This document shows, piece by piece, positions 28,801-61,236 of a stretch of DNA of 64,000 nt. Origin of the DNA: Siphonodentalium dalli (Eukaryota > Mollusca > Scaphopoda > Gadilida > Siphonodentaliidae); the NCBI GenBank assembly GCA_032622095.1, contig CP136062.1, forward strand, positions 225,446,578 to 225,510,577, in the 5' to 3' direction. Each line of letters opens with the position of its first letter. The stretch's first letter is position 1. A program made the position numbers and the translations under genes. The notes under the pieces were generated by a model that was given only the letters and a program-made list of their open reading frames with translations, was not told the origin of the DNA and did not search any database.

Positions 28801-31800
28801 TTATGAACAATAAAATACTATTATACGCGATATTTATGATTTGTATAAGAACAAAATATGTCTATGTTTCAATATTCGTTCGGTTCATGGTAGTTTTAAC
28901 GGATGTGGCTCATTTAACAGCATACCCACTGCGAAGGCCATCCGTGCCTTCAACAATCGTGTATACGTGCTTATGTATAAAACAAACAATGGGTGCGAAC
29001 GAAAATACTCTCTTAATTTCAGAGCACGCATTACAGCGATGGAAGATGAGAAGTTTGACATTAACTTTCAACCCGATATTAATGGATTTACCGTGTTGGC
29101 CGATGTCGGGAAATTCGCGTTTGATCTTGATGTAACAATAAAATTGTAAGTATTAATGTACTGACGTTTAAATTAACTGTAATGGATCAGCGTTAACATA
29201 CATCTTGAATTTAAAAACCTTGTACTGCCCTAGATATACATATATTCCTCCGAATGTTGTATCGTAAAGTGATCAGATTTAGTTTAATTAATTAATCTAT
29301 CTATTCTAATAATAATTATAAACCAACATCCATACGATATTGGCTGGCACACTAACAGCTAAATTTATCTACGCTAATATCACCTTTGGGTGAAATGATA
29401 TAACGAAAACTGTTCGGGGATCTTCGTCTGTAAACGCTTTTTTATTCATCAACAAGGAAACTATATTCAATGTGTTTACATCACGATGAAGATATACAAA
29501 TTGTGTACAATATAAGATATTAATTTATTTAGATGTTGAATGCTCATAATACATATATAAATTGGGATTGCACATTTCAGGGGAGCCATCGCACATGAGA
29601 AGTTAGATGTCGTTATTACAGACCTCAATTTCTCATCGGAACTGGTTGTCGGTGGGTATATAATATGTAGAGTATCCATGCACGATAACACATTCATGGG
29701 CGTGTAACCACCCCCTGTAAAGTGGTCCTGTTGATGTGTTGTGATGCTGGAGTGTCCTGCTGAATTGCTATTTTGCTGTTAGGGCAAACTGATGCTGTTA
29801 AGAAAATTACCGTTATTTTTTCTAAAGTTTCTCGCGGTATTCATATAATGTTAACTTATCTATAGGAAAAGCCACTATGTGTATCAAACATTCAACAGCG
29901 TATATATCGCGAAATATTTTAATACTGGTTGTATTAGTTACTATAACCAACTTGGCCATTCACATCGTTTTGTAAACACCAGTGCAGCAACTATTGAATT
30001 TTTTATTAATATATATTTTCTTTCATACAGCCACTGGTTTTTTTCTCAAATAGCTCGGATTAGCAAAGACATTTCTGTATAGTTTATTATTGCCAGGAGT
30101 GTTGACAATTCCGGAAATATAACTAGTATTTATACCGCTAGAGTATGCACTTAACTATAGGCGTTATATTCAATAATTAATCATCATGCCGAATGAAACT
30201 ACCATGCGCTGTAAGACAAAACATGAGCTTGTTTGCTGTATGTCCAAAATTACTATTTTTGCCCGACAGTAACTGTTGGATGTTGGATAATCAGAAAACC
30301 CAAACTTTAGAGACGTAAACCATTGGGGGTTTGACTTGAGGCCGATAAATCGTTCAGGTGGATCTGTTTAATGGTCTGTGTACCTTGGCCATTTTGACAG
30401 CCATTTCATGGCCACGATTCTATAATTTTCCGTCCGTGTCCGTCCGTATTCGCTCCCGTACTCTAATTTAACACAAACTGGTAAAACGGCGTAAATCCGA
30501 TGATATTCATTTATCACCCCCACAATGACCAAAAATCATGTTAAGAGACTCGTCTGCCAGGCATTTGTTTTCTCGTTTTTCCACCTTTTCAACTTCCAAA
30601 AACATTTCAAAATCGGAATCGAAGGGGGGACACGATCAAAATCGAAATGAAACTTAAAACGGGACTTTGAATGATCTTCGGGAAACAGATGAGCAACAGT
30701 GATTATACCGATCTCATTTCTGTTATATTCCGGTAACACTTATGATGAGATCACGGAATATGCATACAATCCTGTTCAAATCCCGACTGAAGGTTCCCTA
30801 AAATTCTAGCTATTATCAGATCCCGATCATAATCCGTAATTTTAAAGGCCCACTTAATTTTCGAACCCCAAGAATACTTTATATAAAATATATGCCATAT
30901 TATATACCATTTGAAAGAGGAAGCTCCAAAACATTGTATTATCAACTTATCCGGTGCAATAAACTGTGGACATGTTATTTTTGTTGAGTTGCCAATACGT
31001 TTTATCATCAAGATTGAAGTAAAAATCAGTATTATTTTCAATACAGGCGGAATAACTCTATATATTAAAGATCGAGTTCTTCCCCTTTCATTGAAAAAGT
31101 TTGAATTCTGTTGCATTCTGGGTGCCAGAGGGGTAAGTCTTCAGCAGTTTTCTATTTCTCTGTGGGCATCTTCTGAGACACAGATGTTTCAAATAGTGAT
31201 GAATTATAGTATTTTAATCATATTTTATGGCATAGATTGTTATTAAAACCGTATATCAAAATAAATAATCGGAGACTCGAAAATTAAGTGGGCCTTTAAT
31301 GCGTTTGATATTTTGCAGTATACAACGACGGCATTGCAACGTTCAATGACACGAAGTGCACCTTTTCCTATGGAGACCTAAAGATTGACGGTCTAGATAT
31401 CACCATGTTTCATGGCATGATTGTCGACACTTTTCGGAATGGGGTAACTATATATTTCGATATTTGTTGGGCAATCACTATATAATGTTGAAACCTCAAA
31501 ATAGACATATAAGATTTAAAGGGACACAAGCCACAAAGCGTTCGAATTGGGTTCATGTGAAATAATACGATACGATACGATACGATTTATTAGCATAAAC
31601 ACGAATAAAGGCAGTATGATAACAATACAATTCATAATAAAACAATAATTAATAAACAATTACATGTGAACATGGCATGACTTGCTACGTGTATTTTATT
31701 GTGTGATGACAAGCATACTATTTATTCAGAATGCTTATCAAAGAAGCACCGGACCACGTTGCTGATTTTGCTGCTTCTTTTATGGTTATCATTTTTCATT

Positions 31801-34800: not shown

Positions 34801-37800
34801 ATACAGATGGTCTATCTCTTCCTATACCACGTTTTATATAGTTTCATGGGTATACATATGGTCTATCTCTTCCTATAACAAGTTTTATATAGTTTCATGG
34901 GTATACAGATGATCTATCTCTTCCTATACCACTTTTCATATAGATTCCTGCATGGGTATAAAGATGGTCCATCTCAGTTTCATGGGTATACAGATGGTCT
35001 ATCTCTTCCTATACTACGTTTTATATAGTTTCCTGGGTATAAAGATGGTCTATGTCTTCCTGTAACAAGTTTTATATAGTTTCCTGTGTATATAGATGGT
35101 CTATCTCGTCCTATAACACTGTTTATACATTTTCCTGGGTAAAAAAGATGGTCTATCTCTTCCTATACCACGTTTATACATTTTCCTGGGTATACAGATG
35201 GTCTATCTCTTCCTATACCACGTTTTATATAGTTTCATGGGTATACATATGGTCTATCTCTTCCTATAACAAGTTTTATATAGTTTCATGGGTATACAGA
35301 TGGTCTCTCTCTTATATCTTACTATAACACGTTTATACAGTCCCCTCGGTATAAAAGATGGTCCATCTCTGTTTCCTGGGTATACAGATGGTCTATCTCT
35401 TCCTATACCACGTTTTATATAGTTTCCTGGGTATACAGATGGTCTATCTCTTCCTATTCCACGTTTTATATAGTTTCATGGGTATACATATGGTCTATCT
35501 CTTCCTATAACAAGGTTTATATAGTTTCCTGGGTATAAAGATGGTCTATCTCTTCCTTTACCACGTTTATACAGTTTCCTGGGTATAAATATGATCTATC
35601 TCTTCCTATACCACGTTTTATATAGTTTCATGGGTATACAGATGGTCTATCTCTTCCTATACTACGTTTTATATAGTTTCCTGGGTATAAAGATGGTCTA
35701 TGTCTTCCTGTAACAAGTTTTATATAGTTTCCTGTGTATATAGATGGTCTATCTCGTCCTATAACACTGTTTATACATTTTCCTGGGTAAAAAAGATGGT
35801 CTATCTCCTCCTATACCACGTTTATACATTTTCATGGGTATACAGATGGTCTATCTCTTCCTATACCACGTTTTATATAGTTTCATGGGTAAACAGATGA
35901 TCTATCTCTTCCTATACCACGTTTTATATAGATTCCTGCATGGGTATAAAGATGGTCCATCTCAGTTTACTGGGTATACAGATGGTCTATCTCTTCCTAT
36001 AACAAGTTTTATATAGTTTCATGGGTATAAAGATGATCTATCTCTTCCTATACCACGTTTTATATAGTTTCATGGGTTTACATATGGTCTATCTCTTCCT
36101 ATACCACGTTTTATATAGTGTCATGGGTATACAGATGATCTATCTCTTCCTATACCACGTTTTATATAGATTCCTGCATGGGTATAAAGATGGTCCATCT
36201 CAGTTTCCTGGGTATACAGATGGTCTATCTCTTCCTATACCACGTTTTATATAGTTTCATGGGTATACAGATGGTCTATCTCTTCCTATACCACGTTTTA
36301 TATAGTTTCATGGGTATACATATGGTCTATATCTTCCTATAACAAGGTTTATATAGTTTCCTGGGTATAAAGATGGTCTATCTCTTCCTATACCACGTTT
36401 ATACAGTTTCCTGGTTATAAAGATGATCTATCTCTTCCTATACCACGTTTTATATAGTTTCGTGGGTATACAGATGGTCTATCTCTTCCTATACCACGTT
36501 TTATATAGTTTCATGGGTATACAGATGATCTATCTCTTCCTATACCACGTTTTATATAGATTCCTGCATGGGTATAAAGATGGTCCATCTCAGTTTACTG
36601 GGTATACAGATGGTCTATCTCTTCCTATAACAAGTTTTATATAGTTTCCTGCGTATAAAGATAGTCTATCCATTCCTATACCACGTTTTATATAGTTTCA
36701 TGGGTATAAAGATGGTCTCTCTCTTATCTCTTACTATAACATGTTTATACAGTTTCCTCGGTATAAAAGATGGTCCATCTCAGTTTCCTGGGTATAAAGA
36801 TGGTCTATCTCTCCATATAACAAGGTTTATATAGTTTCCTGCGTATAAAGATAGTCTATCCCTTCCTATAACAAGTTTTATATAGTTTCCTGTGTATAAC
36901 AATGGTCTATCGTTTCCTATAACAAGGTTTATATAGTTTCCTGGGTATAAAAATGGTCTATCGTTTCCTATAACAAGTTTTATATAGTTTCCTGCGTATA
37001 AAGATGGTCTATCCCTTCCAATAACAAGGTTTATATAGTTTCCTGGGTATAAAGATAGTCTATCCCTTCCCATAACAAGGTTTATATAGTTTCCTGGGTA
37101 TAAAGATAGTCTATCCCTTCCCATAACAAGGTTTATATAGTTTCCTGGGTATAAAGATAGTCTATCCCTTCCGATAACAAGGTTTATATAGTTTCCTGGG
37201 TACAAAGATAGTCTATCCCTTCCCATAACAAGGTTTATATAGTTTCCTGGGTATAAAGATAGTCTATCCCTTCCCATAACATGGTTTATATAGTTTCCTG
37301 GGTATAAAGATAGTCTATCCCTTCCGATAACAAGGTTTATATAGTTTCCTGGGTATAAAGATAGTCTATCCCTTCCTACAACAAGGTTTATATAGTTTCC
37401 TGGGTATAAAGATAGTCTATCCCTTCCCATAACAAGGTTTATATAGTTTCCTGCGTATAAAATAATAGATATGAATCGAAGACACCCGTCCGGGAACGCT
37501 CCTATTAATTAATATGGATTTTAGGGGTGGGGGTATTTTTCTATATTGAAAGATTGTGCCAAAAATGGGGTAGTTGTGGAAATGACAATTTATATCCAGA
37601 ATGGTTTGGCACCATGGTTGTTGTTGACAACTTATGGCCGACGTAGACCTCTAAACGCCACATCATAAGTTTGGATCAGTACCGCAATGTATCGTGGGCA
37701 TGGCTTAACCATAACACTGTCGCATATAGGAAATTTAGTTGTTGTAACCGATGGGGTATACATGCAATGAATCCACCTCCTTTCCTTGCAGGTGTGCGAT

Positions 37801-40800
37801 GCTATCCGCAAAGGTGTCAATAACAAGGCAACAATGATTAACACAAGATGTAAGTTGTAAACGAGCATTTTCTGTATCAGTATATTAACTACAGTGTATA
37901 GTGTAGTGTACAACAGTTTTGAAATAGCGGAATGAGGCCCCCCGAGGGTCAATTTAGTGATGCTATCCCGCACCCTCTGTGGACCTCATTATACTTAGGC
38001 CTTATCTTCTGGGAAGTATTTATAGTCTGAAATTAACATTGTTTTAGTGACTCCCTTCTGTTCAGTTTCTATATCCCCATAATTTACAGAAGAATGCAAA
38101 ATCGAGGTGACTAATGGGTGAATATCACCAATTCAACTATCACCTACATACCAGAGTCGTTATTTCGCTAAAAATCCGGATTCAGAATCCGAAGCCGATT
38201 ACGGGGGCGGGGCTAATTCCCGATTCTATGTCAGATTTTGAAATCCACGTGGTCTCTGAAACTATGTTTAATGTTCTCCCAGCGTCAAACATGGCTCATG
38301 TATTTGACACAAGTATCATTTGTATCTTATATTTATAAAGTTCATGTTTGTTGTGAAAGTCATGCTTTTCTTCTATGTGTATATACACGGCACATAATTT
38401 GCTGCCAATCCGACTTAATCGCATCTTTTTTCAAGTTAAAGTGTTTTTATTGATGAGGGCAAGCTTTTCTAACAGCTCTGTGCCTCCTGAATCAAATTCC
38501 GAAGATGTTGTGAAGAACACACGAAACTTGTCAGTTGAACAGGAACGTGACGACAGGGGTTGGTTGGGTGTCTCGACCCCACCCCGAACTTTGGTACAAT
38601 TTGCTTAGCTGTGCAGTTATTCATACGTGAGGAAAATCAGGATTATTTTTCACTAATTGTTCCAAATAATGATACGTACAAGCCAGCAAACGCAACAAAC
38701 AAACCCGATTTTAAATAAATACATATACAAACTTATGACTAACTCGGGAGAGGGGGTGTCCAGTGATCTGTATATATGTTCAACTTGTTTTGGTAGTCAT
38801 GTTGCTTTGCCATTACTAATTATTTATTTTTTCAGTGTAATAACTTATTGGCGAGGGGGTACCCTTAAGTGGGTCAGCACTTGTCCCCCAATTCCTTTGT
38901 ATGTATAAACAAATGTATGTGTTATATATCATGTGTTATCTAAATTTGACATATATTTGAAATAAATATATCTAAACTAAAATTTGGTACATTCCAGCAG
39001 TCGGAAATTTCATGCATGACACAACATTGGTTGGACATTAATTTGACACCATATATAGGTTGGCATTGTTCTCATTGTTTTATTTTTTTCAACCAGTAAA
39101 GGTTGGTAATTTTCCAATCTTAGTGTTTGTCAGGTTGGATATTTCCAAGGGGAGCAAATGGAATTCTGCGAACCTGTGAGATTGATGTTTGGTTCAATCG
39201 GGGGGGGGGGGGGGGTGCAGTTGGCCGGAAATTTGAGGAAACTTCTAGCCACGTCCCTAGAACATGTGTCTGTTGTCTATACAGAGACTATTGTGCAAAA
39301 CGACTGCATTTAACGAAACAAAACATTTTAAACATGAAATTGCTATAAGACTAGATGATAGTACATACGTGTATCTGATAATCCATCGATACCATATAAT
39401 CCTTCTATTTCTTGAATAAGAAGAAACATTATAATAACGAACACAGCAGAAGACATATCCATGCAGGTTCATATGAATTCGGTCAATGGTGACGTATCCG
39501 CCGAATTCGAAATCGACATGCGTTCGGGCGGTATTTTATGGATGGAATTATGAAATGGACATATGAAAGTGACAATCAACAATGATTTGCAATTGCTTCG
39601 CCATCAACCGAAGTGCTCCCCCAGCGTTACTATCAATAGCGTTATTATTTGGCTAATTTCAGTAATATTCTCCCAGCTTACATTCAATAAAACAAATGTG
39701 TCTCCGCATTTAAAATTCTTTGATATATATCGTTTATATTCTGCCATAATTTGTACACAAGAGACGGATTCTTATGTTTTATTGTGTTTTTAAAGGGGTA
39801 CTGTACCCAAGATGTTGTTGTTGGTTTCTATAATCCCCGAGTCGGAGAATAAGGTAACAACTTTTCCATTTTTTGAAAGTCTGTTGAGTACGAAGTATTG
39901 TTACGGATGGCAAATTTACCGGAATGCAAAAATACAAATTGTCGTTGTCGAGTAATTTTTGTAAAGTTTTCAACCAAATGAATCAAATAAACATTATATT
40001 ATATGCTTAGTAGTCCCATATACTCATTTAAGTTAGTGTACCGTCGCTAGTCAATGAGTGGCTTGGGTTTTCTCCCCGTATAAGCATAATGTTTCAAACG
40101 ATCGTGTGTGCAATTGTTTTCCTAATCCAGTATCCCTCAATTATAATTTGATTACGTTTTGTACACGGAAATTAGAATTTTAAGAGACGCCATTTTATGG
40201 CTGGAGCCATAAAATCAATTTATATTAAATTATTAACTTTTAAATTATTAAATTTTAAGATAGCCTATTAACCTGAGCGTTTACAGAATACATCTTCGAC
40301 TCAAATTACTTATATTTCTATATAGTATCGATAATAGATCGTTGTTATCACCGGGAATTTATTGAAAATGGCGTACAGTACCCCTTTAAACTCCGAGGTG
40401 GCGAAATCTCGGTTTGTTTACATTACGAACATTTGAGACCGTAATCGGAATCCGAATCCAGATTCGGATTACCACGAAATTGAGATTACGGTCTGTTCGT
40501 TTACTGATTCTGTCAATTTCTGGTCTGTTCTTTTGCCGAACCAAGTCGTACTGGGTCCAATCTGTAATCTGAATCCAGATTCTGAATCAGGATTTTAGCG
40601 AAATAACGCCTCATGCACACTATTTCAATGCTTGAGTGTACACTGTTAAAAAATATCCGTAATTTTACGGCACAATGTGCTGGTAACTTTGCTGCCATCA
40701 CATTTGCTGTAAAAATACGGAACTTCCTTCAAAATGATAAACTTCCCATTCCGTAAAATCACAGGATGTTAACCCATAATTAACGGAACTTCCGCAAAAT

Positions 40801-46800: not shown

Positions 46801-49800
46801 AATCTCATGAATTGCTTACACCATGGAGTCCACTTACAAAGCACAACATGTGCAACTTTAAATTCCACACACAGTCGTGGCCAGGTTACTTTGTTTATAT
46901 AATCATCCGAGGTAACTACAACGAGAGGTATCGGACCCCCCCCCCCCCCCGAGATCGCGACGACGCACGAATTACTATAATTTACAGATTCCCTACCCTA
47001 TCAATAGTAGTTCATTATGCGAAAGGTGTCCCATAAATATACCGATTTTCCAATCTGGTTCTCGTCGAAGGAAACTTGGACTAATGGTGAGTTTGCAAAA
47101 CCTCTCTATTGCATTTAATTTTAAATACCACACTTGTGTTTTTCAGTTAATCTGGAACTAGAGGATGTAGATTTTGGAGATGAATTCTTTATGCACGCCT
47201 CGAATATTACGATGGGCGCAGACTACATATATATAGTGAACCGGGTAAGTACTCCCAGATGGGCGCAGACTACATATATATAGTGAACCAGGTCAGTAGT
47301 CCAAGATGGGCGCAGACTACATATATATAGTGAACCGGGTAAGTAGTCCCAGATCAATCCTGAGTGTGTATGCCTGTCGTTTGCAGAATGAGGTCCCCAG
47401 AGGGCGAATTTAGTGGCGCTATCCCATATAGGGGGCTAGCATCACTAAATTCACCCTCTGGGGACCTCATTCTGCTTAGGACTCATCTTATCTGCAAAGT
47501 TTCTTTATTATCAAATGTCTATAGAAACATCTTCACATAGTTTCTATTTGTTTTACTTTAGTTTCTCTACATCCCCATATTGGCAGATCACACATTGCAT
47601 ACTCGAGGTTCCCAATGGGTGTACATCACAATATTCACCCTTTGGTAACTTCAATCTGAGTATACGTCTACCATAGCCGATGCATGAGGTCGTGCAGAGG
47701 GTGAATTTAGTGATGCTAACCTCATTCTGCTAAATGACGGGCACACTAAAAATTCAGAAAATAGTTTTAGTTATTTCAGTTGAATCGTATCTGATGTAAT
47801 GCAACTTTCATGGCGGACATGCGCTGGTAGCGCATTAAGGATCATGTGCCAGTGCATTCTCTTATATATATGAGACTCCCATATATAAGATAATTCACCG
47901 ACTTACAAGGTCAATGTAAATATTGTTAGGCCAATGCATTATCTTATATATGCGAGGCTCCCTACGGTAGACTCGTATATATGAGACTATATTGGCACAG
48001 GGTTTTGGAAAATTTCTAGTCGTGTGAACTCCATGGTTGATAAAATATACTGCCTAAGCTGTTAATTGTATTAACCATATTGAAGTCTATCATGATACCT
48101 TCGGCTATATACCATGATATACAGTACGTAAAGAGTGTGCGATAAGCAAAACACTCAACACTCTGGCCATTTTTTTTCTTTGAGAGAGTGATTCGCCGTG
48201 ACTCAATCATCATCGAAAGCTAGAGTGGCTGATTAGCGAGTAATCAACATGGTGGTGTTGTAGTTTTATATCGCATCGCATCAAGGGGGGGGGGGGGTCA
48301 ACAAAAAATTCAGGTACGTATGCCGATTTTTTCCTTTCGACCTTTGTTTGGACACACCCAACCCCGCGTCCAAATTTTTTTCCGTTTTCGGCAGTTTTTT
48401 TCCCGACCATTTTTGGACACCCACCCCCTTTTAACACTGAAACAGATATTTGCGGGGGTGATTCACTGTAAACAGCTGTATATGAATTTCTGTGCATACT
48501 ATTTGTCATGGATGTTAACATTGACAGGTACGAACGAACGAACGAACGAATATTTTATTATAGTGACATGTGTATAGTGTATAAAAACATATGACATACT
48601 ACATGTGATAACAATGTCGAGTAAACAAAATAAGAACACACCCGGCCAATAAGGCATATAAGTCACTTTAAACAAAATAATAAATTTAAATAGGAACGCG
48701 TCATTTTGGGGTCATTCGGCCAAAAAAAAAACATGGCTGCCAGCGGCCATCTTGGATTTCAAAATTCAATCCATTAGCATGGGCTACAGGCTATACTGTT
48801 TGTCTGTTCATCATGAAATTTTTCATTTATGTTAATATTGACATTCTAAGGTGTTTTAAGCCAAACTCATTGCAAAAACAGCCAAAAAGACTTGCAGGAA
48901 AAACATTTTTGATTTGCGGACAAAATTGTTTGTTGGTCCCATCGACCACCGTGCACCCACCCCGACATACGTGCCCGGAAATTTGTTTTCCCCCCTCTCT
49001 GATCGCATAGGTTTACAATTTCCATAAATTGTCATTTTCGAGGTCATTAAATTCTTGAACAAACCGAGACAAGATAATTATCAATATTTAGTTAATAGTG
49101 TTATTTAATAACTCGAAATGGCGTAAACCATTCTGAGTATACACGTTTGTTTTTTGCGGAGATTCTCAGTGATACGCGGTGATTCTATATCATAGAGCTG
49201 GTCAGTCTCCAGGATTTATATTGATTCATATTAATCCGCCCCATCCAAGTTAACCGTGCAACACCGCGAAATAAATCACAGTTAATCCTGCCCCCCCCCC
49301 CCCCCACCCCCAGTGTAGAGTGTTTTGCTTATCGTACACTCGTTATCTACTGTACCTTACTAGCGTATATAACAGCCCAAATTTTCCTAACTACCTGTTT
49401 TTATTTGTTGTTTTTTTTTGGTCTCGCATTAACTCAGGTAGTGGGCTCGTTCGATAGTTGTATCGATATTAAGTTTTATGGAATAAAGGTTGGTTGGTTA
49501 GTGTATCTGTTGACGTTCTTTTGAAGGAGACTTTCGCTCTGTTAGGTAGCTCCAATTATACCCTCAATGCTTTAATCCACTGTAGTACTGTACTCAGTTG
49601 CAGGAGTGTGTGACGTCAGATGGTGCTGTAAAATGAGCAGTTCCCATTATGTGATTGAAGCTTTGCTTCATTATAGTGAAATGTTTGTATCGAATAAACG
49701 GTTTAAGTGAGACTAAGAATTGGTATTATTAAAACAGTTGGTATTAGAAAAATTAATATCAGATCAGTGGGAGAAAAAGGGAGAATTGGATAGTAATGTT

Positions 49801-52800
49801 TCAGATAGAAGAGAATTTAAAGATATGTGGATAATCTGCTATATAATATAATATCCGGTCATATCGGTCGGTAAAGGGCTATCTATTTACACAACCCAGG
49901 TCTATGCCTTCTCACAAGATGACAGCAAACAGGTCGTGAGGTATCAACCGTATGTATTGGCGAAGATTCCCGAGACAAACAGCATGCTAACCATGGCAGT
50001 CGGCGAGGATATGTTCAGCACGGTGCTCCAACAACACACCAAGAAATTAACCGATCAGGTAATATGTCCATGCATAGAGTTACCCCACCTGGAACACGAT
50101 CAGGTAATATGTCCATGCATAGAGTTGTCCCGCCTGGAACACGATCAGGTAATATGTCCATGCATAGAGTTATCCCGCCTGGAACACGATCAGGTAATAT
50201 GTCCATGCATAGAGTTACCCCACCTAGAACACGATCAGGTAATATGTCCATGCATGTTTATTGACATAATTATGGAACCCATTCATAACTGTCGAATCCT
50301 GAAATTTGCCGAAAACCCTGTGCCATGCATTCCCTGATATATGCAAGTCTCCCTAATGGAGCCTCGCATATATGTACGAGAATGCATTGGCCTAACAATA
50401 TTTACATTGAGCTTGTAAGCCAGTGCATTCTCTTATCTATTTGAGTATTCCTATTTGATACTCGAATATATAAGAGAATACACTGACACGGGATATTTAA
50501 TGCTGCACCAGCGCAGCTCCCATCATGGAATAAAGTAAATAATATTGGATTTGATGCTATCACCAAATCACCCATACAGAATATATAAAATCAAGTACGA
50601 GTTGACTTCTTCCGTTTGGGTACGAGCTGGCGAGGGTACGAAATGAATTACTCTCGAAGATATTAGACAGATTATATAAGGATCATCCCTTGTCACGTGG
50701 TCCTGCTAATCTAACAACAAAGGGACCCACCGGCGGCACCTCGAAACAGTGCGCGGAACCGGGACTCCCCACATACCCCGTATTAAAGCTCGTGGGCCTT
50801 TTCCCCAGCAACCCAATTCAAATCAATCCAATTCAAGATATAACATTTAATTCAATTATATTCAACTTTTGCCGTGTTCAGACATGACGTTTTTCTGTGT
50901 GCTATATCTCCAACAACAACAAACCGTGGGGTGAAGGAGAAGTTCACTCGATCTTTTCGACCATCCCGGGCGCTTCGCGCCCATCTACTCACTTCTCTCC
51001 TGCTAATCTGCTATATACATGATGCTGGTGGGTCCTACTCAATTGATATGAAGCTGTTAGGCCAAACTGAAGAAGTACTGAAAAAGTACCGTTATTTTTC
51101 TAAAGTTGTCATTTTCGCGGTGTTAGGGATAATCTGAACACATCCAAGTGAAGCCATTATGTGTATAAACCATAAAAAAAACATATAATTTGCGAACTAT
51201 TTTAATACTGACTTTATTAGATGTTGCAAATCGGCTAAAATATAGATGGCTGCTCGCGTCAATCACTGGCCATGTCGTATTTGTGACCATCTGGTCAAGT
51301 GGTCCCGCTATAAGAAATTAACTATTCTAACTGTTAGATATTGCAAGAAAAACATTTTCTTATATTTCTTGAAATTTGAGAATATTTTTCTAACTTTTGT
51401 CTAGAAAGTAAGAATGTGCCCTTCTTAACCCTTTAGCCAACAAACCGGCCAAAAACCGGCCAAAAACGGCAAAATAAAGCTGCAACAGACTAAATTATCT
51501 TGGGTCTGTCTCAATAAAACCATACAAATATGGATATCATTGGAACCGGCTCATTGACCACATTGTGATGGTTACAGTTATGCCCTGTGCCAATGCATTC
51601 TATTATATATGCGAGTCGACCATAGGTCGCCTCGCATATATAAGAGAATGCATTGGCCTAAAAAAAAACTTTTTACCATTTTGTCTTACATTCTTTAACA
51701 ATTTTACCATTTTTAATATGTGTTAAGCCAATGCATTCTCTTATATATGCGAGGTGACCTATGGTCGACTCGCATATATATTAAGAGAATGCATTGGCCC
51801 AGGGCCGTTCTGTTGGGTAAAGGGTTAACGCATTAGAAATAAGTTCTAACTTTAAGAAATATATTTTCTTGATGTAGGAACAGTATACCAGTGAGTATGT
51901 ATACTCCCAAATTTTCTAGTCTTTTCTAGTCTTGTGAGAAAATAATTTCTTGACATTTAAGAAATGATTTCTTACCTTTTTCTATATACTGAGAAAATGA
52001 CTTTCTAGGATTTAACAAATTATTTTATGCTGAATTGCTATGATGATGGTTTGCATAGTTTTAGTAATTATTTCAGCCACCAGGTCACGTGGTACAAAGA
52101 GAAGGCATAGTATACTTACATAAACAAATTCACACCGTATACCGTGAGTGGAGGCTTTTAAGAAACTTGGTATTATTATCGACGCAACGTATGTATTATA
52201 TAGCTAACTTAAAGCTACTCAATCCGATTCAATGGTCCCCATATAATCAGATTCCAAGTTAGAGTTATCCATCTTCATCCGCAATTTGGTCCGAGACCGT
52301 CGGCTTGTCGACTTTTTACTGGGCCACTATTAAGTCTCGATGGTAAAAAATAATAGATTTCAAATATCGATGTATAATAACTACGAGCTTTGATATAGGT
52401 GTCTTGACTCGAATCAAATATTGTTTACCCCCGAATCCAAATAAATAGTAATTGACGGGCCCTTAATCGGATTATGCATCCTTAACTCAACAACATCAGC
52501 GCTGGGTATATATTTTGACAAATATGTTTAAAGCCAAAACAATGCATTGCTGTTAAGAAATAAATATATATATACCGTTGGGATAAATAACACGTCATAT
52601 TGCTATATCCTCTGTTTGTTCTTTTTACAGTTCCATAATGTGGTGGGCGACTATTTATCAATAAATATGGTGCACGGATATTTTCCCGAGGTGAGTGAAA
52701 AAACTTTGCACATAAATAGCTCCGTAAGAAATAGGGTTTATGCCCAGTATCGTTGGAGAGGTCTCACTCACCAAAAAAAAGTTCTGAAGGGTACACATGT

Positions 52801-58800: not shown

Positions 58801-61233
58801 CCCAAAAATATTTACGTGTTTACAGAGAGACGTTTGAGTTTTTTACTGACTGAGATATAGATCATGCCATGAATCTCTACGCTATAGCTTATGCCCGTAG
58901 AGATCATATACCACCAGTACAAAACCTGGGAACTTTGACATGGAACTGTATAACATCGAACAAACAGGACAGGGAATACTTGTTCCTCAATAATTTGCTT
59001 TGTAGTAGGGAGTGGTCGCATCTCGATATTGCATGATTTGTTTACTTTTGTGAACATTGAATTAATTACCGGGGGAAATTGCCACGATTGCAACCGATGC
59101 ACAGCAAAGTCGCTCATAAAGTCAACTAAACCATGTAATTTCAAGTTGGGACCTTCAACTACAGTGAAATACATTATTAAGGAACAAATAATTACTGAGA
59201 AATATATTACCTGCACTATTCTATCAATATTATAAACTTCCCTATATATCACAACATCAAAAAGTTTCCAGATTTTATCATGTTGGATAGATCATGCCAT
59301 GAATCTCTACTCTGGCTAACGCCCGTAGAGATCATATTCCACCAGTACAAAACCTGGGAACTTTTTGAAGTTTTGGCAATCGAAAACATAACGCGGGGAA
59401 TATATTTTTCAGTTATTATTTATTCCTTAATAATGCACTTCATTATAGATAAAGGTCGACCCCAGCTCGAAATTTCAAGATTTAAGTGACTTTATGAACG
59501 ATTTTGCTTTGCGTGGCTAACAATTGTCGAATTTCTCCTGGGCAAATTAAGTCAATGTTTATAGCGATATCGTCTCACAAAAGTCACAGAAAGGCATGCA
59601 AGTTCGAGTTGGGAACTTCATCGACAGTGAAGTACATTATTAAGGAACAGATAATAACTAAGAAATATATTCCCCGCGTTATGTTTTCGACTTTATAAGG
59701 TATAACCTGTCAAAACTTCAAAACGTTGCCAGGCTTTGTACTGGTCGATTACGATCTATATATATATATACGCGTTAGCCAGAGTAGAGATCCATGGCAT
59801 GATCTACATGTTGGAGTGTGATCTTTATGGGTGTAACCTCGACTAGAGATTCATGGCACGATCTAACAGAGATGTAGATACATTTTATGTCTGTCGTAAT
59901 ACGACATTTGTAGTCCAAGATACTCTATCCCAATGCGACGGTGGACTTCAACTTTACAGAGCCGAACGTCCGTGTAAAGATCCGTCCAGAGATGATGTCA
60001 ATACAGTTCACCATGACGATGGATCTACTGGCTAAAACCGTGTGCAAAAACCGAAACACAACCGACCTCTTCTTTACCATGGATCTGGTAAGTTATGTCC
60101 ACATTTTAAACTCTGCATCATAATTGTCGATCTTCACTTCGTGTGAGATCCACCCCCGGTAACCGGGGGTGATACGGGGGTTACCGGAGGTGATACGGGG
60201 GTTACCGGGGGTGATACGGGGGTTACCGGGTGTGATACGGGGGTTACCGGGGGTGATAGCGGAGGACCGGGTGATGGCAGAGGAGCCCAAATATGTCGTT
60301 CTTTGGTATACCATAGAATTAAGATGAGAGGAAATGATCTACTGAGATTTGGAGATGCCACTGAAACGCGTCAGCCATTCTCGAGTATAATGCTCGTTGT
60401 TTATTCTGGACTACAAAATCACACAAAATGTGTAAAAAAACTGTCGGTTCTGCGTTGCAAAAAAAAAATGTCATTTGAATATTATATGTACCAGCGTTGC
60501 ACTGAATCTCGAAATATCACAATGGAAGATTCGTGTGTCGCGAGGGAAACAAAATGGATGTCTGGCCTATTTATTTCTCCATTGTTTATGTCGTCTTACC
60601 TTTACTAAATAATGGCGATTTGTATGAGAAATTGCAACACCACAATAGATCAACTCTGGTGAAATATAAGTCAAATTCTTCTATTGGGTCAAAATCACTT
60701 CAAATATCTCCGTTATTTCGTCAAAACACTTCTTCTCATACAAATCGCCGTTATTTAGTAAAGGTACATTCTTTATAGAGTTATTACCCTTAAGATTAAA
60801 TATGAAGCTAACATGCAGGATTATCGTGATTTAGTGGACAATCCCAACATCGCGTGCCACGCGTGGTCGGATTGACCATTAATTAATGAAAATTTAGGTA
60901 CGGATTGTCCATTTATAAATGGCCAATCCTTTAAAGAATTGCCTTTGTGGGTGAAGTTCTGTTTGAATTATTTTGTATTTACGTGATCGCCAGATCGCCC
61001 GTTGTGCAGCAACTTCAAACTCGTAGGTCTCCCATAGCAATTGGGGCCTAAGCAGAATGAGGTCCACAGGGGGTAAATTCACCCTCTTGCACCTCATTCT
61101 ACAAATGACAGACAAACTATTTGAAGGCTCGCCGTCAAATGATTTTGTGTTTTCTAAAATTTCAGAATGCTGATATTCCCATTCAGATGTTGCACAATGA
61201 CACGCATGGCAAGATTAATCTGATGTCAGTGAA
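13730..61233 (+). CDS. LBP/BPI-family gene, multi-exon, 3' end outside window
   Basis: Secreted lipid-binding protein of the LBP/BPI/PLTP/CETP (TULIP) family. Vertebrate members bind lipopolysaccharide or phospholipid, and invertebrate members act in antibacterial defence; that role is inferred here from the family. Twelve exons join in one open frame of about 408 codons: 13730-13850, 21016-21100, 29023-29145, 29581-29651, 31319-31443, 37792-37849, 39447-39530, 47147-47244, 49900-50058, 52631-52690, 59914-60087, 61166-61233. Features: N-terminal signal peptide; a Cys pair at residues 147/177 like the BPI disulfide; several N-X-S/T glycosylation sites; and a G-Y-F-P-E segment matching the FLPEV region of BPI. 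Family proteins run to about 480 residues, so about 70 C-terminal residues are expected downstream. Every join preserves phase. Uncertain points are an extra exon near 26031 and the exon at 39447. Confidence 0.85.
14080..19270. repeat. 56-bp satellite array (about 92 copies)
   Basis: Near-perfect tandem repetition with a 56-bp period, landmark GTCAGTGTTATTAAAGG then CCACTTAATGTTTGAGTC and GATTATTTATATACAGA. Variants differ at a few positions (TCCCTG/TCCCCG/TGCCCG; GGCCCAC/GGTTCAC/GGCTCAC) and recur in runs, which suggests local unequal exchange or gene conversion. The array fills intron 1 of the LBP/BPI gene. The same unit occurs inverted at 23163-26040. Confidence 0.97.
19271..19592. mobile_element. 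Partial MITE body, family B (TTAA type), at the edge of the satellite
   Basis: Contains 'GATAGAGTTATTCCCCTTCC' and a right end GATTCGAACATTAAGTGGGC, both shared with the complete family B MITEs at 30842-31299 and 58274-58734. It directly abuts the 56-bp array, whose unit matches the terminus of the same MITE. The array thus looks like an amplified left end of this copy. Confidence 0.6.
19593..20500. repeat. Degenerate ATTAGTGGGAAATTAGTAATCAG tract (19870-20440)
   Basis: A run of about 570 bp made of variants of 'ATTAGTGGGAAATTAGTAAT' with irregular spacing (12-30 bp). It is non-coding. The preceding 270 bp (19593-19865) shows no recognisable feature. Confidence 0.8.
20510..20645. mobile_element. 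Small fold-back repeat, family C (GAATGAGGTCC)
   Basis: Two complementary arms: 'GCAGAATGAGGTCTCCGGAGG' type on the left and 'CCTCTGGGAACCTCATTCTGC' type on the right (patterns, not verbatim runs), around a loop near 20580. Related copies are at 21106, 37925, 47365, 47690 and 61045. It has no coding capacity. A MITE is the likely explanation. Confidence 0.65.
21016..21100 (+). CDS. LBP/BPI gene exon 2
   Basis: Acceptor TTCTGTTTCAG|TC and donor ACATC|GTGAGT are both strong. Entering in phase 1 it reads VFKWINDTDLNRFLKGM then DAITSHLFDVT, ending in phase 2. The amphipathic helix-like pattern and position correspond to the first long helix of the BPI N-terminal barrel (the 'LDYASQQGTAALQKEL' region of BPI). 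N-D-T is a potential glycosylation site. A family C fold-back repeat begins immediately after the donor. Confidence 0.75.
21106..21262. mobile_element. Small fold-back repeat, family C
   Basis: The arms 'GCAGAATGAGGTCCCCAGAG' and its complement near 21215-21235 flank a short loop. The outer flanks also pair (AGTGTGTCTGACA on the left, TATCAGACACACT on the right). It starts only a few bases after the exon 2 donor. Confidence 0.75.
21290..23163. repeat. 48-bp satellite array (about 39 copies)
   Basis: Tandem units of about 47-49 bp with landmark CAACAGTCGTCCAGTCAAAT then GATATAATATGAGAACGAAA. Because 48 is divisible by three, the minus strand has long open frames (388 and 310 codons) repeating FDWTTVGWGFRSHIIS. 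These jump frames whenever a unit has one extra or missing C, so they are by-products of the array and not genes. The array is sandwiched between oppositely oriented blocks of the 56-bp satellite. Confidence 0.97.
23163..26030. repeat. 56-bp satellite, inverted block (about 49 copies, 56-62 bp)
   Basis: Reverse-complement relative to 14080-19270: landmark GGGGACTCAAACATTAAGTG then GGCCTTTAAT and AACACTGACT.TGTATATAAA. Many units carry an extra TTAA (TTAATTAATAACAC), giving 60-62 bp periods. Higher-order blocks of several hundred bp are repeated, for example around 24700-25140 and 25300-25700. Confidence 0.95.
26031..26093 (+). CDS. Candidate extra LBP/BPI exon at the edge of the satellite
   Basis: Immediately after the last satellite unit the sequence becomes unique and reads VPRFDKVTYGTIVPGSLL. 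With an acceptor at AAACATTAAG|T and a donor at CTTCT|GTGTAA the piece has phase 2 at both ends, so it could be inserted between exons 2 and 3 without breaking the frame. It would supply the 'GKGHYSFYSMDI'-like strand otherwise missing from the model. The acceptor has no pyrimidine tract, and no other evidence supports it. It may instead be a relic or non-coding DNA. Confidence 0.3.
26094..26570. repeat. Unique stretch with an 11-bp microsatellite
   Basis: Includes AGCTCCACCA repeated about seven times with two shortened units at 26286-26366. No gene is recognised in the rest. Confidence 0.6.
26573..26960. mobile_element. Degenerate family B MITE
   Basis: Left end CCCACTTATAATTTTCGAA and right end GATTCAAAAAATAAGTGACC, with body phrases TATTATATACCATTTGGAAG and AGAGTTATTCCCCTTCCATT shared with the intact copies at 30842 and 58274. 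A poly-C run of about 15 bases lies inside. Non-coding. Confidence 0.65.
27195..28330. repeat. Large fold-back with a nested perfect hairpin
   Basis: The arms 27195-27490 and 28000-28330 are diverged inverted copies; translated, both contain 'ENxMxxEYERKxxYNMHxY', so they derive from one ancestor, perhaps a transposon coding sequence, though no known domain is recognised. Between them, 27511-27676 is an almost perfect palindrome (GGATTAACTGTCATGTGGAC and its complement) with its centre near 27594, probably a younger MITE inserted inside. Confidence 0.6.
28583..28951. mobile_element. Fold-back MITE just upstream of exon 3
   Basis: Two arms of about 170 bp are reverse complements (GGATGGCCTTCGCGTTGGGT on the left, its complement near 28922-28942 on the right), with a loop near 28765. 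The right end lies about 70 bp before the exon 3 acceptor. Short open frames inside are incidental. Confidence 0.7.
29023..29145 (+). CDS. LBP/BPI gene exon 3
   Basis: Acceptor CTCTTAATTTCAG|A and donor AAATT|GTAAGT. Entering in phase 2 it reads ARITAMEDEKFDINFQPDI then NGFTVLADVGKFAFDLDVTIK. The alternation of hydrophobic residues is typical of the twisted beta strands of the BPI N-terminal barrel, and the piece sits where BPI has '[25 protein letters not shown]'. It exits in phase 2, matching exon 4. Confidence 0.8.
29581..29651 (+). CDS. LBP/BPI gene exon 4
   Basis: Acceptor CACATTTCAG|G. It continues the barrel strands with GAIAHEKLDVVITDLNFSSE and LVV. The donor chosen is GTCG|GTGGGT (phase 1), because it keeps the frame into exon 5; the neighbouring GGTGG|GTATAT donor would break it. 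The strand pattern resembles the '[22 protein letters not shown]' part of BPI. Confidence 0.7.
29735..30100. repeat. Interspersed repeat, also at about 51020-51240
   Basis: Shares in direct orientation phrases such as TACCGTTATTTTTTCTAAAGT, GCCA.TATGTGTAT.AA and CGAA.TATTTTAATACTG with 51020-51240. Non-coding, class unknown. The following 30100-30840 contains no recognised gene. Confidence 0.5.
30842..31299. mobile_element. TTAA-flanked MITE, family B, complete
   Basis: Flanked by TTAA at 30842-30845 and 31296-31299. Inverted ends are AGGCCCACTTAATTTTCGA and TCGAAAATTAAGTGGGCCT. A TATTATATACCATTTGAAAG block and an ATTCTGTTGCATTCTGGGTG block are shared with 58274-58734. The right end is only 20 bp before exon 5. 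The terminal ~40 bp matches the unit of the 56-bp satellite. Confidence 0.85.
31319..31443 (+). CDS. LBP/BPI gene exon 5, first conserved cysteine
   Basis: Acceptor GATATTTTGCAG|TA and donor AATGGG|GTAACT, phase 1 in and 0 out. It reads YNDGIATFNDTKCTFSYGD then LKIDGLDITMFHGMIVDTFRNG. The Cys (residue 147 of the assembled chain) followed by alternating strand residues corresponds to the BPI 'ITCSSCSSHINSVHVHIS' region, where Cys135 makes the conserved disulfide. N-D-T is a potential glycosylation site. Confidence 0.85.
31540..32095 (-). pseudogene. LINE fragment, C-terminal region only
   Basis: On the minus strand the sequence reads NFTKLRISDQKLAIERG, then a Cys and NEYHFIMEWSHYFDLR. This 'LR.S...L.IE.GR....' plus 'C....ENEYHF' arrangement is the post-reverse-transcriptase C-terminal region common to many invertebrate non-LTR retrotransposons, and resembles the fragments at 41490 and 44041. 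Stops interrupt it upstream and downstream, and the reverse transcriptase is absent. A GATAC microsatellite (31566-31588) lies at its 3' side, probably the tail of the insertion. Confidence 0.65.
32480..32985. repeat. Interspersed repeat, inverted relative to 52200-52545
   Basis: Blocks such as ATTTGATTCGAGTC, AATCTGATGATATGGGGGACC and TCGAATCGGATTGAGT occur as complements in 52200-52545. No coding function recognised. The region 32100-32480 shows no feature. Confidence 0.5.
32985..37460. repeat. 51-bp satellite array (about 87 copies) with higher-order structure
   Basis: Units of 51 bp, landmark ATGGTCTATCTCTTCCTATA then CCACGTTTTATATAGTTTC and ATGGGTATACAG. The period is divisible by three, so the plus strand reads MVYLFLYHVLYSFMGIQ repeatedly (up to 271 codons) and the minus strand GRDRLSLYPGNYINLV; neither has gene-like surroundings. 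A multi-unit block (CTATGTCTTCCTGTAACAAG onward) recurs at about 34656, 35047 and 35695. From about 36850 the units switch to a CTATCCCTTCC variant. The array fills most of intron 5. Confidence 0.97.
37792..37849 (+). CDS. LBP/BPI gene exon 6, second conserved cysteine
   Basis: Strong acceptor CCTCCTTTCCTTGCAG and donor AGAT|GTAAGT, phase 0 in and 1 out. It reads VCDAIRKGVNNKATMINTR. The Cys (residue 177) lies 30 residues after the exon 5 Cys and in the position of BPI Cys175 ('VCEKVTNSVSSEL'). The pair is therefore expected to form the family's single disulfide. In BPI the spacing is 40, so the loop is shorter here. Confidence 0.85.
37920..38005. mobile_element. Degenerate family C fold-back repeat
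   Basis: GGAATGAGGCCCCCCGAGGG pairs with CCCTCTGTGGACCTCATTAT around a short loop. It begins about 70 bp after the exon 6 donor. The following 38010-39440 contains no recognised gene; it holds a poly-G run at about 39200 and small incidental open frames. Confidence 0.6.
39447..39530 (+). CDS. LBP/BPI gene exon 7 (probable)
   Basis: With acceptor ACGAACACAG|CA and donor GGGCG|GTATTT the piece is phase 1 in and phase 1 out and reads EDISMQVHMNSVNGDVSAEF then EIDMRSG. Its hydrophobic alternation resembles the other barrel strands, and it fits between exons 6 and 8 without breaking the frame. The pyrimidine tract is poor. An alternative acceptor three bases further (CAG|AA) would create a stop. 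Skipping this exon also keeps the frame, so it could be a cassette exon or a false call. Confidence 0.55.
39790..40389. mobile_element. TTAA-flanked MITE, family D, complete
   Basis: A 600-bp element flanked by TTAA (39790-39793, 40386-40389) with ends AGGGGTACTGTAC and GTACAGTACCCCT. Its interior is AT-rich and non-coding and contains CATTTTATGGCTGGAGCCAT near 40191. A second copy begins at 61557 and is split by a hAT transposon at exactly that phrase, so this copy represents the empty site. Confidence 0.8.
40620..40990. repeat. CCGTAAAATTACGG-type repeat
   Basis: Several copies of CCGTAA.TTTACGG palindromic phrases and a ~110-bp block repeated (ACGGAACTTCCTTCAAAATG at about 40718 and 40824). 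Non-coding; probably a MITE family. The region 40990-41490 contains poly-G runs (22 G at 41185-41206; about 16 at 41368) and no gene. Confidence 0.55.
41490..44040 (-). pseudogene. LINE reverse transcriptase, 5'-truncated, split by an insertion
   Basis: Read on the minus strand from about 44035: RLNNFLTTNAIQTEAQAGFR, then FCTFIDFSKAFEYVWRDG (catalytic Asp motif), an 849-bp insertion (42958-43806), then LWSKLMRIGITG, GLKQGDGLSPILFALYVNDL and the YADD box (42648-42662), followed by KTKVMIFG, a FRYLGTWFTKQGTFS thumb-like segment and a C-terminal C..C/GDEYH motif. These are the ordered reverse-transcriptase blocks of a non-LTR retrotransposon. Frameshifts near 42745 and 41710 break the frame. Endonuclease and ORF1 are missing, as expected for 5' truncation. 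It is not a functional copy. Confidence 0.9.
42958..43806. mobile_element. hAT-like non-autonomous element inside the LINE
   Basis: An 849-bp segment flanked by an exact 8-bp duplication CCGTCGCG (42950-42957 and 43807-43814). Short inverted ends are TAGAGCCCGAAGCC and GGCTTCGGGGTCTA. Removing it reconnects the reverse transcriptase frame (VWRDG to LWSKL). An 8-bp duplication is characteristic of hAT elements. The inside has no transposase; it contains GCCGCCGCC-rich and AGCCGGCTGAGCC segments. Confidence 0.8.
44041..44538 (+). pseudogene. Second LINE fragment (C-terminal domain), opposite orientation
   Basis: The plus strand reads SLISKYRDSWQHELDLSSRG, then LCKFRTSNHRLPIETSRW, CDDICTICDDG and GDEFHYLFECKKFTEQR, ending at TAA 44536-44538. 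The C..C...GDE.HYLFEC pattern is a C-terminal zinc-knuckle-like module of non-LTR retrotransposons. It joins head-to-head with the truncated 5' end of the minus-strand LINE at about 44040. A T-rich tail (44544-44575) follows. Confidence 0.8.
44580..45640. repeat. Non-coding repeats, including a CTACGAT-rich fold-back
   Basis: From 44990 to 45580 copies of GCAGACGCTACG, CTACGATTTT and their complements (AAAATCGTAG) occur on both sides of a central unique part, suggesting a decayed fold-back element. No gene recognised. Confidence 0.45.
45660..46525 (-). repeat. CTAGC-ended repeat, long form with ~121-bp internal tandem units
   Basis: Units starting with GGAAACGGGT.GAGCTATCG recur at about 45678, 45806, 46042, 46165, 46287 and 46408, spaced 120-123 bp in the regular part, each containing CCCCGGATACGAATTTTATC and GCGCATGCGCAGAC. 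The end GGGCTCACCGGCTAGTATAT and the TCTAGTCTCATATATTTTGA segment match the termini of the inverted copy at 5684-6058. Open frames on both strands follow the repeat period and are not genes. Confidence 0.8.
46526..47100. other. No gene recognised
   Basis: Intron 7 sequence with a poly-C run near 46938 and short incidental open frames. No element ends were identified. Confidence 0.4.
47147..47244 (+). CDS. LBP/BPI gene exon 8
   Basis: Acceptor GTGTTTTTCAG|TT and donor AACCGG|GTAAGT; phase 1 in and 0 out. It reads NLELEDVDFGDEFFMHAS then NITMGADYIYIVNR. The 'LD.DF.G.FF' pattern matches the segment before the central linker in PLTP/BPI ('SNLDMDFRGAFF'). N-I-T is a potential glycosylation site. 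The last 34 bases and the donor are part of a 47-bp tandem repeat (47211-47353). Confidence 0.8.
47211..47353. repeat. 47-bp tandem triplication covering the exon 8 splice donor
   Basis: Three units beginning GATGGGCGCAGACTACATAT at 47211, 47258 and 47305. Unit 1 carries the functional exon end (CCGG|GTAAGT); unit 2 has CCAGGTCAGT; unit 3 again has CCGGGTAAGT. The period is not a multiple of three, and reading through unit 1 reaches a TAG in unit 2. Confidence 0.95.
47365..47485. mobile_element. Family C fold-back repeat
   Basis: GCAGAATGAGGTCCCCAGAG and its complement near 47455-47475 flank a short loop with CATATAGGGGGCTAGC. A further half copy lies at about 47690-47750 (AGAGGGTGAATTTAGTGATG ... 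CCTCATTCTGC). Confidence 0.75.
47846..48002. mobile_element. Palindromic element related to family A
   Basis: Two successive palindromes on the GCCAATGCATT.TCTTATATA motif with outer ends GTGCCAGTGCATTCTC and ATTGGCACAGGG. It resembles the core of the family A MITE without its TTAA ends. Another copy is at 50316-50493. Confidence 0.6.
48003..49899. other. Intron 8, no gene recognised
   Basis: Contains poly-G/C tracts (48286, 49290), a CGAA microsatellite (48531-48549), and a segment near 48730 with ATGGCTGCCAGCGGCCATCT related to repeats at 3.1 kb. Small open frames have no recognisable domains. Confidence 0.4.
49900..50058 (+). CDS. LBP/BPI gene exon 9, central linker
   Basis: Acceptor TTACACAACCCAG|G and donor GATCAG|GTAATA, phase 0 at both ends. 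It reads VYAFSQDDSKQVVRYQPYVL then AKIPETNSMLTMAVGEDMFS and TVLQQHTKKLTDQ. 'MLTMAVGEDMFSTVLQQ' corresponds to the BPI 'MVYLGLSDYFFNTAGLVYQ' region at the start of the C-terminal barrel. The donor lies in a 45-bp tandem repeat, so longer in-frame versions of this exon are possible. Confidence 0.85.
50053..50257. repeat. 45-bp minisatellite with a splice donor in every unit
   Basis: Units beginning GATCAGGTAATATGTCCATG start at 50053, 50098, 50143, 50188 and 50233 (the last partial). Each contains CAG|GTAATA identical to the exon 9 donor. The 45-bp period is a multiple of three, and the frame stays open through all units, encoding VICPCIELPHLEHDQ-like 15-residue repeats. Confidence 0.97.
50316..50493. 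mobile_element. Palindromic element related to family A
   Basis: Outer ends CCCTGTGCCATGCATTCC and ACACTGACACGGG, with two internal palindromes containing GCCTCGCATATAT and GATACTCGAATATATAAGAG. Same arrangement as 47846-48002. The rest of 50494-51424 has no recognised gene; 51020-51240 is a repeat shared with 29735-30020. Confidence 0.6.
51425..51828. mobile_element. TTAA-flanked MITE, family A, second copy
   Basis: Flanked by TTAA (51425-51428, 51825-51828), with ends CCCTTTAGCCAACA and TGTTGGGTAAAGGG and the same pair of palindromes as 2158-2557. The high similarity of the two copies suggests fairly recent activity. Confidence 0.85.
52200..52545. repeat. Interspersed repeat, inverted partner of 32480-32985
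   Basis: Complementary blocks ACTCAATCCGATTCAATGG, CCCCATATAATCAGATTCC and GACTCGAATCAAAT. Non-coding. It lies about 85 bp before exon 10. Confidence 0.5.
52631..52690 (+). CDS. LBP/BPI gene exon 10
   Basis: Acceptor TTCTTTTTACAG|TT and donor CCCGAG|GTGAGT, phase 0 at both ends. The 20 codons read FHNVVGDYLSINMVHGYFPE. This matches the BPI segment 'FRLTTKFFGTFLPEV', one of the recognisable landmarks of the C-terminal barrel. The small size is usual for exons of this family. Confidence 0.85.
52691..53530. other. Intron 10, first part, no gene
   Basis: No recognised gene or element ends. A duplicated phrase GAAGGGTACACATGTTTTG occurs twice at 52788 and 52815. Confidence 0.4.
53631..53799. repeat. 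Left arm of an inverted pair (partner 57751-57914)
   Basis: The arm, with CAAAGGGGATGTCAAGGCCT and GACTAGCAGGAAAATACTAG, is the complement of 57751-57914. CATAATTTAGTGAAATGATA occurs in direct orientation next to each arm (53540 and 57915). The arms enclose about 4 kb with no recognised gene, possibly a non-autonomous DNA element. Confidence 0.65.
55440..57245. repeat. Tandem duplication, ~832-bp unit
   Basis: Two full units (55546-56379 and 56380-57209) plus partial copies at both ends. Each starts with CTTTATAATCTGA.AGGTATC and contains GCATGCATGGTACCATGAC, ACCAAACCAAGGAATAGTAT and ACGCGGACAGTGGGTAATAC. Unit identity is high. Open frames from both units (60-79 codons) have no recognised domain. 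Confidence 0.9.
56036..56225. repeat. GC-rich, tRNA-like segment, possible SINE (also 56868-57055)
   Basis: Within each 832-bp unit a GC-rich stretch starts with GGTGGTCCAGACGGTAGA and ends with GTGGCCCAGTGGCCAGAACG. Both resemble a tRNA A-box (TRGYNNARNGG). No convincing B-box or cloverleaf was found, so a tRNA-derived SINE is a guess. Not a functional tRNA. Confidence 0.3.
57751..57914. repeat. Right arm of an inverted pair (partner 53631-53799)
   Basis: Contains CATACTAGTATTTTCCTGCT and TTTGTAGTTACTAGG, complementary to the left arm. Followed at 57915 by CATAATTTAGTGAAATGATA in the same direction as at 53540. Confidence 0.65.
58274..58734. mobile_element. TTAA-flanked MITE, family B, complete
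   Basis: TTAA at 58274-58277 and 58731-58734; ends AGGCCCACTTAATTTTCGA and TCGAAAATTAAGTGGGCC. The body is shared with 30842-31299. Non-coding. Confidence 0.85.
58850..59875. repeat. Fold-back repeats with CATGCCATGAATCTCTAC motif
   Basis: ATCATGCCATGAATCTCTAC occurs at 58862 and 59289, and complements (GAGATCCATGGCATGATC, GAGATTCATGGCACGATC) occur at 59789 and 59845. Shared blocks include CCACCAGTACAAAACCTGGG and GTACATTATTAAGGAACA. A related fragment is at 13907-14060 just after exon 1. Probably nested copies of one fold-back MITE. Non-coding. Confidence 0.65.
59914..60087 (+). CDS. LBP/BPI gene exon 11
   Basis: Acceptor ACGACATTTGTAG|TC and donor GATCTG|GTAAGT, phase 0 both ends. It reads SKILYPNATVDFNFTEPNVR then VKIRPEMMSIQFTMTMDLLA and KTVCKNRNTTDLFFTMDL. 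'YPNATV.F..TEPNV.I.P' corresponds to the BPI '[22 protein letters not shown]' strand pair. It has three N-X-T sites and one unpaired Cys (residue 372). The neighbouring frame gives an unrelated short open frame starting MARSNRD, which is not coding. Confidence 0.85.
60145..60275. repeat. 22-bp GC-rich minisatellite
   Basis: GTTACCGGGGGTGATACGGG-type units repeated about five times between exons 11 and 12. Both strands show short repetitive open frames that are not genes. Confidence 0.9.
60598..60766. mobile_element. Short MITE with 32-bp inverted ends
   Basis: The end ACCTTTACTAAATAATGGCG is repeated as complement CGCCGTTATTTAGTAAAGGT at 60747-60766, and the pairing continues inward (ATTTGTATGAGAA / TTCTCATACAAAT). 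No coding capacity. Confidence 0.7.
61045..61125. mobile_element. Degenerate family C fold-back repeat
   Basis: GCAGAATGAGGTCCACAGGG pairs with CCTCTTGCACCTCATTCTAC. It ends about 40 bp before exon 12's acceptor region. Confidence 0.6.
61166..61233 (+). CDS. LBP/BPI gene exon 12 (last exon in window)
   Basis: Acceptor CTAAAATTTCAG|AA and donor GTGAA|GTAAGT, phase 0 in and 2 out. It reads NADIPIQMLHNDTHGKINLM then SV and a split Lys/Asn/Arg/Ser codon. It fits the BPI '[22 protein letters not shown]' region. The next exon is not in the window. A tandem repeat with ATGTGGCCACCA begins a few bases after the donor. Confidence 0.8.
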
Positions 61234-61236
61234 GTA

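Follow-up and report, generated by a model that had tools for sequence, protein, structure and literature searches.

In the scaphopod Siphonodentalium dalli, the predicted end of exon 9 in a gene of BPI/CETP-like architecture is repeated, together with its 5' splice site, by a 45-bp minisatellite. We regard this locus as a probable mirage-type exon-boundary minisatellite in which donor 1 is mainly used. The array, its five identical donors, the open frame that runs through them, an exon chain free of stops, and a similarly built second array at exon 8 can all be read directly in the window, the whole stretch of 64,000 nucleotides analyzed here (Table 1).

Such a locus would have started with a duplication spanning the exon 9/intron 9 boundary, which gave rise to the tandem array and supplied each unit with the donor and the six exon bases before it. 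Donor 1, still in its original exon context, would make most of the mRNA. The other donor copies would remain in the intron, with use of donors 2-5 minor or absent, and the open frame would be an accident of the 45-bp unit.

Table 1. Predicted exons of the host gene, donor-bearing arrays, and competing donors, in window coordinates (slash, predicted cut)
Feature	Position	Strand	Details
Exon 4-like	29023..29145	+	123 nt
Exon 5a-like	29581..29651	+	71 nt
Exon 5b/6-like	31319..31443	+	125 nt; carries one of two conserved Cys
Exon 7-like	37792..37849	+	58 nt; starts VC (second conserved Cys)
Exon 8	47147..47244	+	98 nt; donor CGG/GTAAGT
Donor-bearing array at exon 8	47211..47354	+	47-bp unit, 3 copies (each with the last 34 nt of exon 8 and 13 intron nt)
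Exon 9 with donor 1	49900..50058	+	159 nt; phase 0/0; open frame runs on to 50334
45-bp minisatellite	50053..50255	+	4 full units and a 23-bp partial across the exon 9/intron 9 boundary; TRF and base-by-base reading
Donor 1, CAG/GTAATA	50056..50064	+	cut after 50058; end of exon 9 proper
Donor 2	50101..50109	+	cut after 50103; +45 nt, +15 residues
Donor 3	50146..50154	+	cut after 50148; +30 residues
Donor 4	50191..50199	+	cut after 50193; +45 residues
Donor 5	50236..50244	+	cut after 50238; +60 residues
Exon 10	52631..52690	+	60 nt; strong acceptor and donor
Exon 11	59914..60087	+	174 nt
Exon 12 candidate	61166..61233	+	68 nt

TRF called the exon 9 array at 50052-50255 with a 45-bp period, 4.5 copies, 95% matches, and 0 indels. 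By base-by-base reading, full units begin at 50053, 50098, 50143, and 50188, and a fifth copy matches over its first 23 bases. The initial annotation had counted five 45-bp units; the 45-bp array stands, with the count corrected to four full units and a partial. The five identical CAG/GTAATA donors that it placed here are present, one in each of the five copies. The array begins 6 nt inside exon 9, as the end of that exon is predicted. A simple matrix made for this analysis scores each of these donors at 7.01, versus at most 5.63 for any other GT in 49900-50600, and the GT scoring 5.63 lies beyond the stop of the exon 9 frame. The shared donor is without a G at +5. Because the five 9-mers are identical, U1 pairing is predicted to be equal for all of them. 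Local RNA structure predictions do not rank the donors consistently (mean unpaired 0.14-0.38 across three window sizes).

The four full units differ pairwise by 1-4 per 45 bases. Four sites of the unit vary, all at positions 30-39 and none in the first 23 (chance ~0.05), and two of the four are silent. That the donor half is the same throughout the five copies (p ~0.05) could hint at constraint; these numbers are too small for reading selection on the units. A 22-bp part of the unit is without evident counterpart in the flanks, and a search across the rest of the window returned only matches of 10-11 bases outside the array. A viral-contig scan with the 45-bp unit gave 0 matches. Use of the units as acceptors, with intron birth at AG/GT, was considered and rejected: the ends of copies 2-5 score poorly as acceptors (-3.1 to -3.4), and 39-42% of all AGs are as good or better.

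The host gene was assembled as an exon chain on the basis of splice-site scores, frame and phase, and visual likeness to BPI. Its first eight exons were fixed before the chicken exon-size table was compared; the 68-nt exon came from an earlier candidate list and was accepted for its size. The joined chain comprises 311 codons with 0 stops. It is without exons 1-3 and 13-16; exons 3, 13, and 14 were looked for and not found, and a seeming exon at 31047-31132 was excluded for failing to join in phase. The exon 9 acceptor is modest, with ~10% of all AGs in the window scoring equal or better. For 4/5 other scored acceptors, at most 4% of AGs are as good or better, and the exon 11 acceptor is weaker, at 28%. 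Exon 9, whose acceptor region lies at 49880-49899, is a multiple of three in length, and skipping it would keep the frame.

The gene resembles BPI/LBP/PLTP/CETP genes in its exon 4-12 sizes, its joining phases, and two conserved Cys columns. Its exon sizes run 123/71/125/58/98/159/60/174/68. Exons 4-12 of chicken CETP are reported as 135, 71+88, 70, 61, 92, 180, 51, 168, and 68 nt, and the matching series of chicken BPI as 129, 156, 64, 64, 92, 177, 60, 168, and 68 nt (PMC3253384). The window therefore displays a near match to the exon-size pattern of BPI/CETP-type genes, not identity: a single 125-nt exon stands where CETP has 88 + 70, and exon 9 is shorter by 15-24 nt than the common sizes. 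The label of exon 9 given in the initial annotation holds in this sense, as 159 nt is near the exon 9 size class of such genes (mostly 174-183 nt).

Both columns of the conserved N-terminal-domain cysteine pair are Cys in 4/4 rows of an alignment of the window protein with the BPI/LBP/CETP profile, the disulfide itself being only putative. This three-member profile was made from BPI, LBP, and CETP (PDB 1ewf, 4m4d, 2obd). The joined protein aligns to it collinearly but weakly, at 6.6 bits, a score that ~5/5,000 shuffled versions of the protein reach or exceed; extending exon 9 to donors 2-5 lowers it slightly (6.3 to 5.5). Comparison of the window protein with the family profile by hhalign gave only 3% probability and an E of 0.015 over 72 columns.

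Family membership was not confirmed by sequence searches. When 2,422 stop-to-stop fragments, taken from the two strands, were scored against the profile, the exons were not singled out (exon 7 ORF 2.2 bits, exon 9 ORF 0.8 bits, unrelated ORFs up to 7.4 bits), and querying the window with BPI, LBP, and CETP by tblastn likewise failed to reveal them. Neither raw frames nor spliced peptides matched the BPI family in Pfam at E up to 1 and up to 10; these scans returned only unrelated families below their cut-offs, for example, PMI_typeI_C (15.4 bits vs 21). On the + strand, the Pfam scans covered all three frames over 38001-53000 and two of three over 53000-63999. A PDB search with a first hand-made peptide, which included a wrong-frame stretch, produced no match, and a viral-contig scan with the protein produced 6 pattern matches and 0 relatives. 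Because the curated-domain test failed, we treat the gene as BPI/CETP-like in architecture without claiming proven membership of the family. Where the C-terminal barrel starts is taken from the BPI structure. Placing an insertion at that point, as had been suggested for residues added by the array, fits the exon 9 model and is reasonable, but it rests on this remote family assignment.

The exon 9 coding frame is without stops from 49852 to 50334 and ends in a TGA at 50335. This bears out the expectation that donors 2-5 would add 15, 30, 45, or 60 residues without closing the frame, at VICPCIEL(P/S)(H/R)LEHDQ per unit. The array is open in 2/3 of the + frames and in 1/3 of the - frames. Among 45-nt stretches sampled from 50240-59900 (n=1,380, overlapping), 40% are open in the first frame, and shuffled units with the donor kept are open in 58% of cases (n=20,000). 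With a prior of 1/3 for a period divisible by three, the chance of an in-frame open array is ~0.13-0.19 (0.40-0.58 x 1/3). Chance cannot account for the repeat itself, but it can account for the open frame.

The second array provides a comparison within the same gene. Its donors are CGG/GTAAGT after 47244, CAG/GTCAGT after 47291, and CGG/GTAAGT after 47338, the first and third being identical 9-mers 94 nt apart. Reading past 47244 leads to an in-frame TAG at 47281, and donor 2 or 3 would truncate the frame; a full-length product therefore needs the first donor there. If the gene is functional, the exon 8 array would serve as an in-gene control that argues for use of the first, exon-attached copy. 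This sister array has the same anatomy but breaks the frame; hence, keeping the frame is not a rule in the host gene. The pair also argues that the unit length of its arrays is not chosen for frame keeping. One frame-keeping and one frame-breaking array in adjacent exons is the chance expectation.

Exon length offers a further guide to donor choice. In chicken genes of the standard pattern, exon 9 measures 174-183 nt in 10/11 and 213 nt in one (PMC3253384), a comparison that leaves out a twelfth gene, P10, presumed to be a pseudogene. Donors 1-5 would give exon 9 lengths of 159, 204, 249, 294, and 339 nt, respectively. Donor 1 is thus nearest the common size, donor 2 falls within the full range, and donors 3-5 lie outside. 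As a counterpoint, the alignment suggests that an exon 9 ending at donor 1 falls several residues short of BPI on its 3' side.

Both arrays resemble a described class of repeats. The term mirages denotes minisatellite-like tandem duplications of exon-intron boundaries in the amphioxus Adh3 gene and the globin genes BflGb6 and BflGb9, with units of 10-72 bp in Adh3 and about 150-160 bp in the globin genes, at either exon boundary (PMC3087553). One mirage is reported to have 6 units in one haplotype and 3 in another of the same gene, and somatic instability is reported for that of Adh3 (PMC3087553). In both Adh3 and the globin genes, regular splicing seems to be undisturbed, with cryptic use considered possible (PMC3087553). 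The window arrays likewise consist of short tandem units across exon-intron boundaries, the exon ends being predicted in both cases. Their units carry splice signals, namely the five CAG/GTAATA copies and the three donors of the exon 8 array, just as many mirage copies carry AG/GT signals. Units of 45-47 bp fall within the Adh3 sizes, and a donor-side precedent exists at the 3' boundary of exon 2 of BflGb9. Unlike those cases, two adjacent exons of one gene both bear donor-side arrays here, and one of these keeps the frame with five identical donors.

Human genes offer a second parallel. De Grassi and Ciccarelli (2009) described variable internal tandem repeats in human segmentally duplicated genes, minisatellites with average units of 30 bp and 4 copies (PMC2812944). 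Among them are 27 intron modifications at exon-intron boundaries, 66% with support for a repeat-keeping transcript (PMC2812944). Those cases concern recent primate paralogs with RNA support, whereas the window holds a predicted, divergent animal gene. The locus fits a known kind, the exon-boundary minisatellites, and by the amphioxus precedent unit-number variation among individuals is plausible at the 45-bp array. No report of a five-donor in-frame ladder was found in searches of one open-access library, a negative that carries little weight.

Further tandem repeats occur across the window. Very large minisatellites were called by TRF at 14090-19270, 21301-26040, and 32980-37459 (56-bp x 92, 48-bp x 39, 60-bp x 49, 51-bp x 65, and further overlapping rows), the last of the three sitting in the host gene's intron that separates exons 5b/6 and 7. 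TRF also called a 29-bp x 2 repeat at 52776-52833, 86 bp downstream of the exon 10 donor, and a 21-bp x 4.8 repeat at 60158-60258, 71 bp downstream of the exon 11 donor. Donors lie inside small arrays in 2/8 cases, and random placement of the 22 small arrays gives 3-4%. The same test gives 1-2% with six hand-picked arrays and 41-65% with all 25 merged arrays, giants included; the case for arrays favouring donors is weak.

Other elements were recorded in the introns and at the end of the window. The intron between exons 7 and 8 contains a reverse-transcriptase fragment at 43785-44039 on the - strand (Pfam RVT_1, E 2.8e-6, 27.6 bits, just under the 29.6 cut-off). The intron between exons 10 and 11 contains a direct duplication at 55597-57173, its copies ~830 bp apart, with blocks of 300, 300, and 90 nt at 93-94% identity. 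Transposon-like ORF fragments occupy 62148-63642 on the - strand; they include a hAT dimerisation region (Dimer_Tnp_hAT, E 4.4e-6, at 62148-62354) and a zf-C17orf113 zinc finger (E 4.2e-8, in 62986-63642). Scans of the window for tRNA genes and Rfam families gave 0 matches.

Several other explanations of the exon 9 array were weighed. The first, which we judge rather unlikely, is that all five donors are appreciably used, yielding a ladder of isoforms with 0, 15, 30, 45, or 60 extra Cys-containing residues, and that copy number sets each individual's range. Five identical 9-mers with equal predicted U1 pairing, a frame open through every donor, phase 0 at both sides of exon 9, and structure predictions that rank no donor consistently are what such a ladder would look like. 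It sits poorly with the frame-breaking sister array at exon 8, with the regular splicing reported for known mirages, and with the 339-nt exon that donor 5 would make; moreover, the chance of an in-frame open array by accident, as estimated above, is not small.

A more elaborate form of the same idea, a length-coded splice selector, appears unlikely. Here, the equal donors would all be used to produce a graded series of BPI-like lipid-binding proteins with 0-60 additional residues, Cys among them, close to where the C-terminal barrel begins. The number of units, changeable between and within individuals, would set the range, and the exon 8 array would act as a non-productive branch that lowers output.

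Position could also decide among equal donors. In older reporter work, the intron-proximal of two equal donors is often preferred, which would predict donor 5. The last donor would then dominate, the whole array would be exonic, and the protein would carry a constant 60-residue insert, as the frame open to 50334 would permit. At exon 8, however, the same rule would pick donor 3 and include a stop, and a 339-nt exon 9 would be far outside the 174-213 nt range; we consider this reading quite improbable. Competing-donor reporters also indicate that sequences between the sites shift donor choice (PMC1877881).

A further reading, for which we see an equally slim prospect, leaves the extra copies uncut. 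They would recruit U1 snRNP downstream and aid definition of an exon whose splice sites are modest, and copy number would tune exon 9 inclusion. The modest exon 9 acceptor and the donor without a +5 G are consistent with this role, as is a 159-nt exon whose skipping would keep the frame. Yet the exon 11 acceptor is weaker, and no array covers its donor.

Short arrays are often misassembled. An assembly artefact or a wrong copy number is nevertheless highly improbable here, given that the units carry distinct variants and the flanks are unlike the unit, even if aberrant assembly has been reported for one mirage of the amphioxus draft genome (PMC3087553).

Whichever donor is cut, five identical donors spaced 45 nt apart in a natural gene offer a clean setting in which to test spliceosomal choice between equivalent 5' splice sites, with the array at exon 8, which breaks the frame, as a built-in control. 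Should the ladder prove true, a variable repeat would control, by way of splicing, how long the protein is. Should donor 1 be the one mainly used, as we consider probable, exon-boundary minisatellites would be tolerable because the first copy is used.
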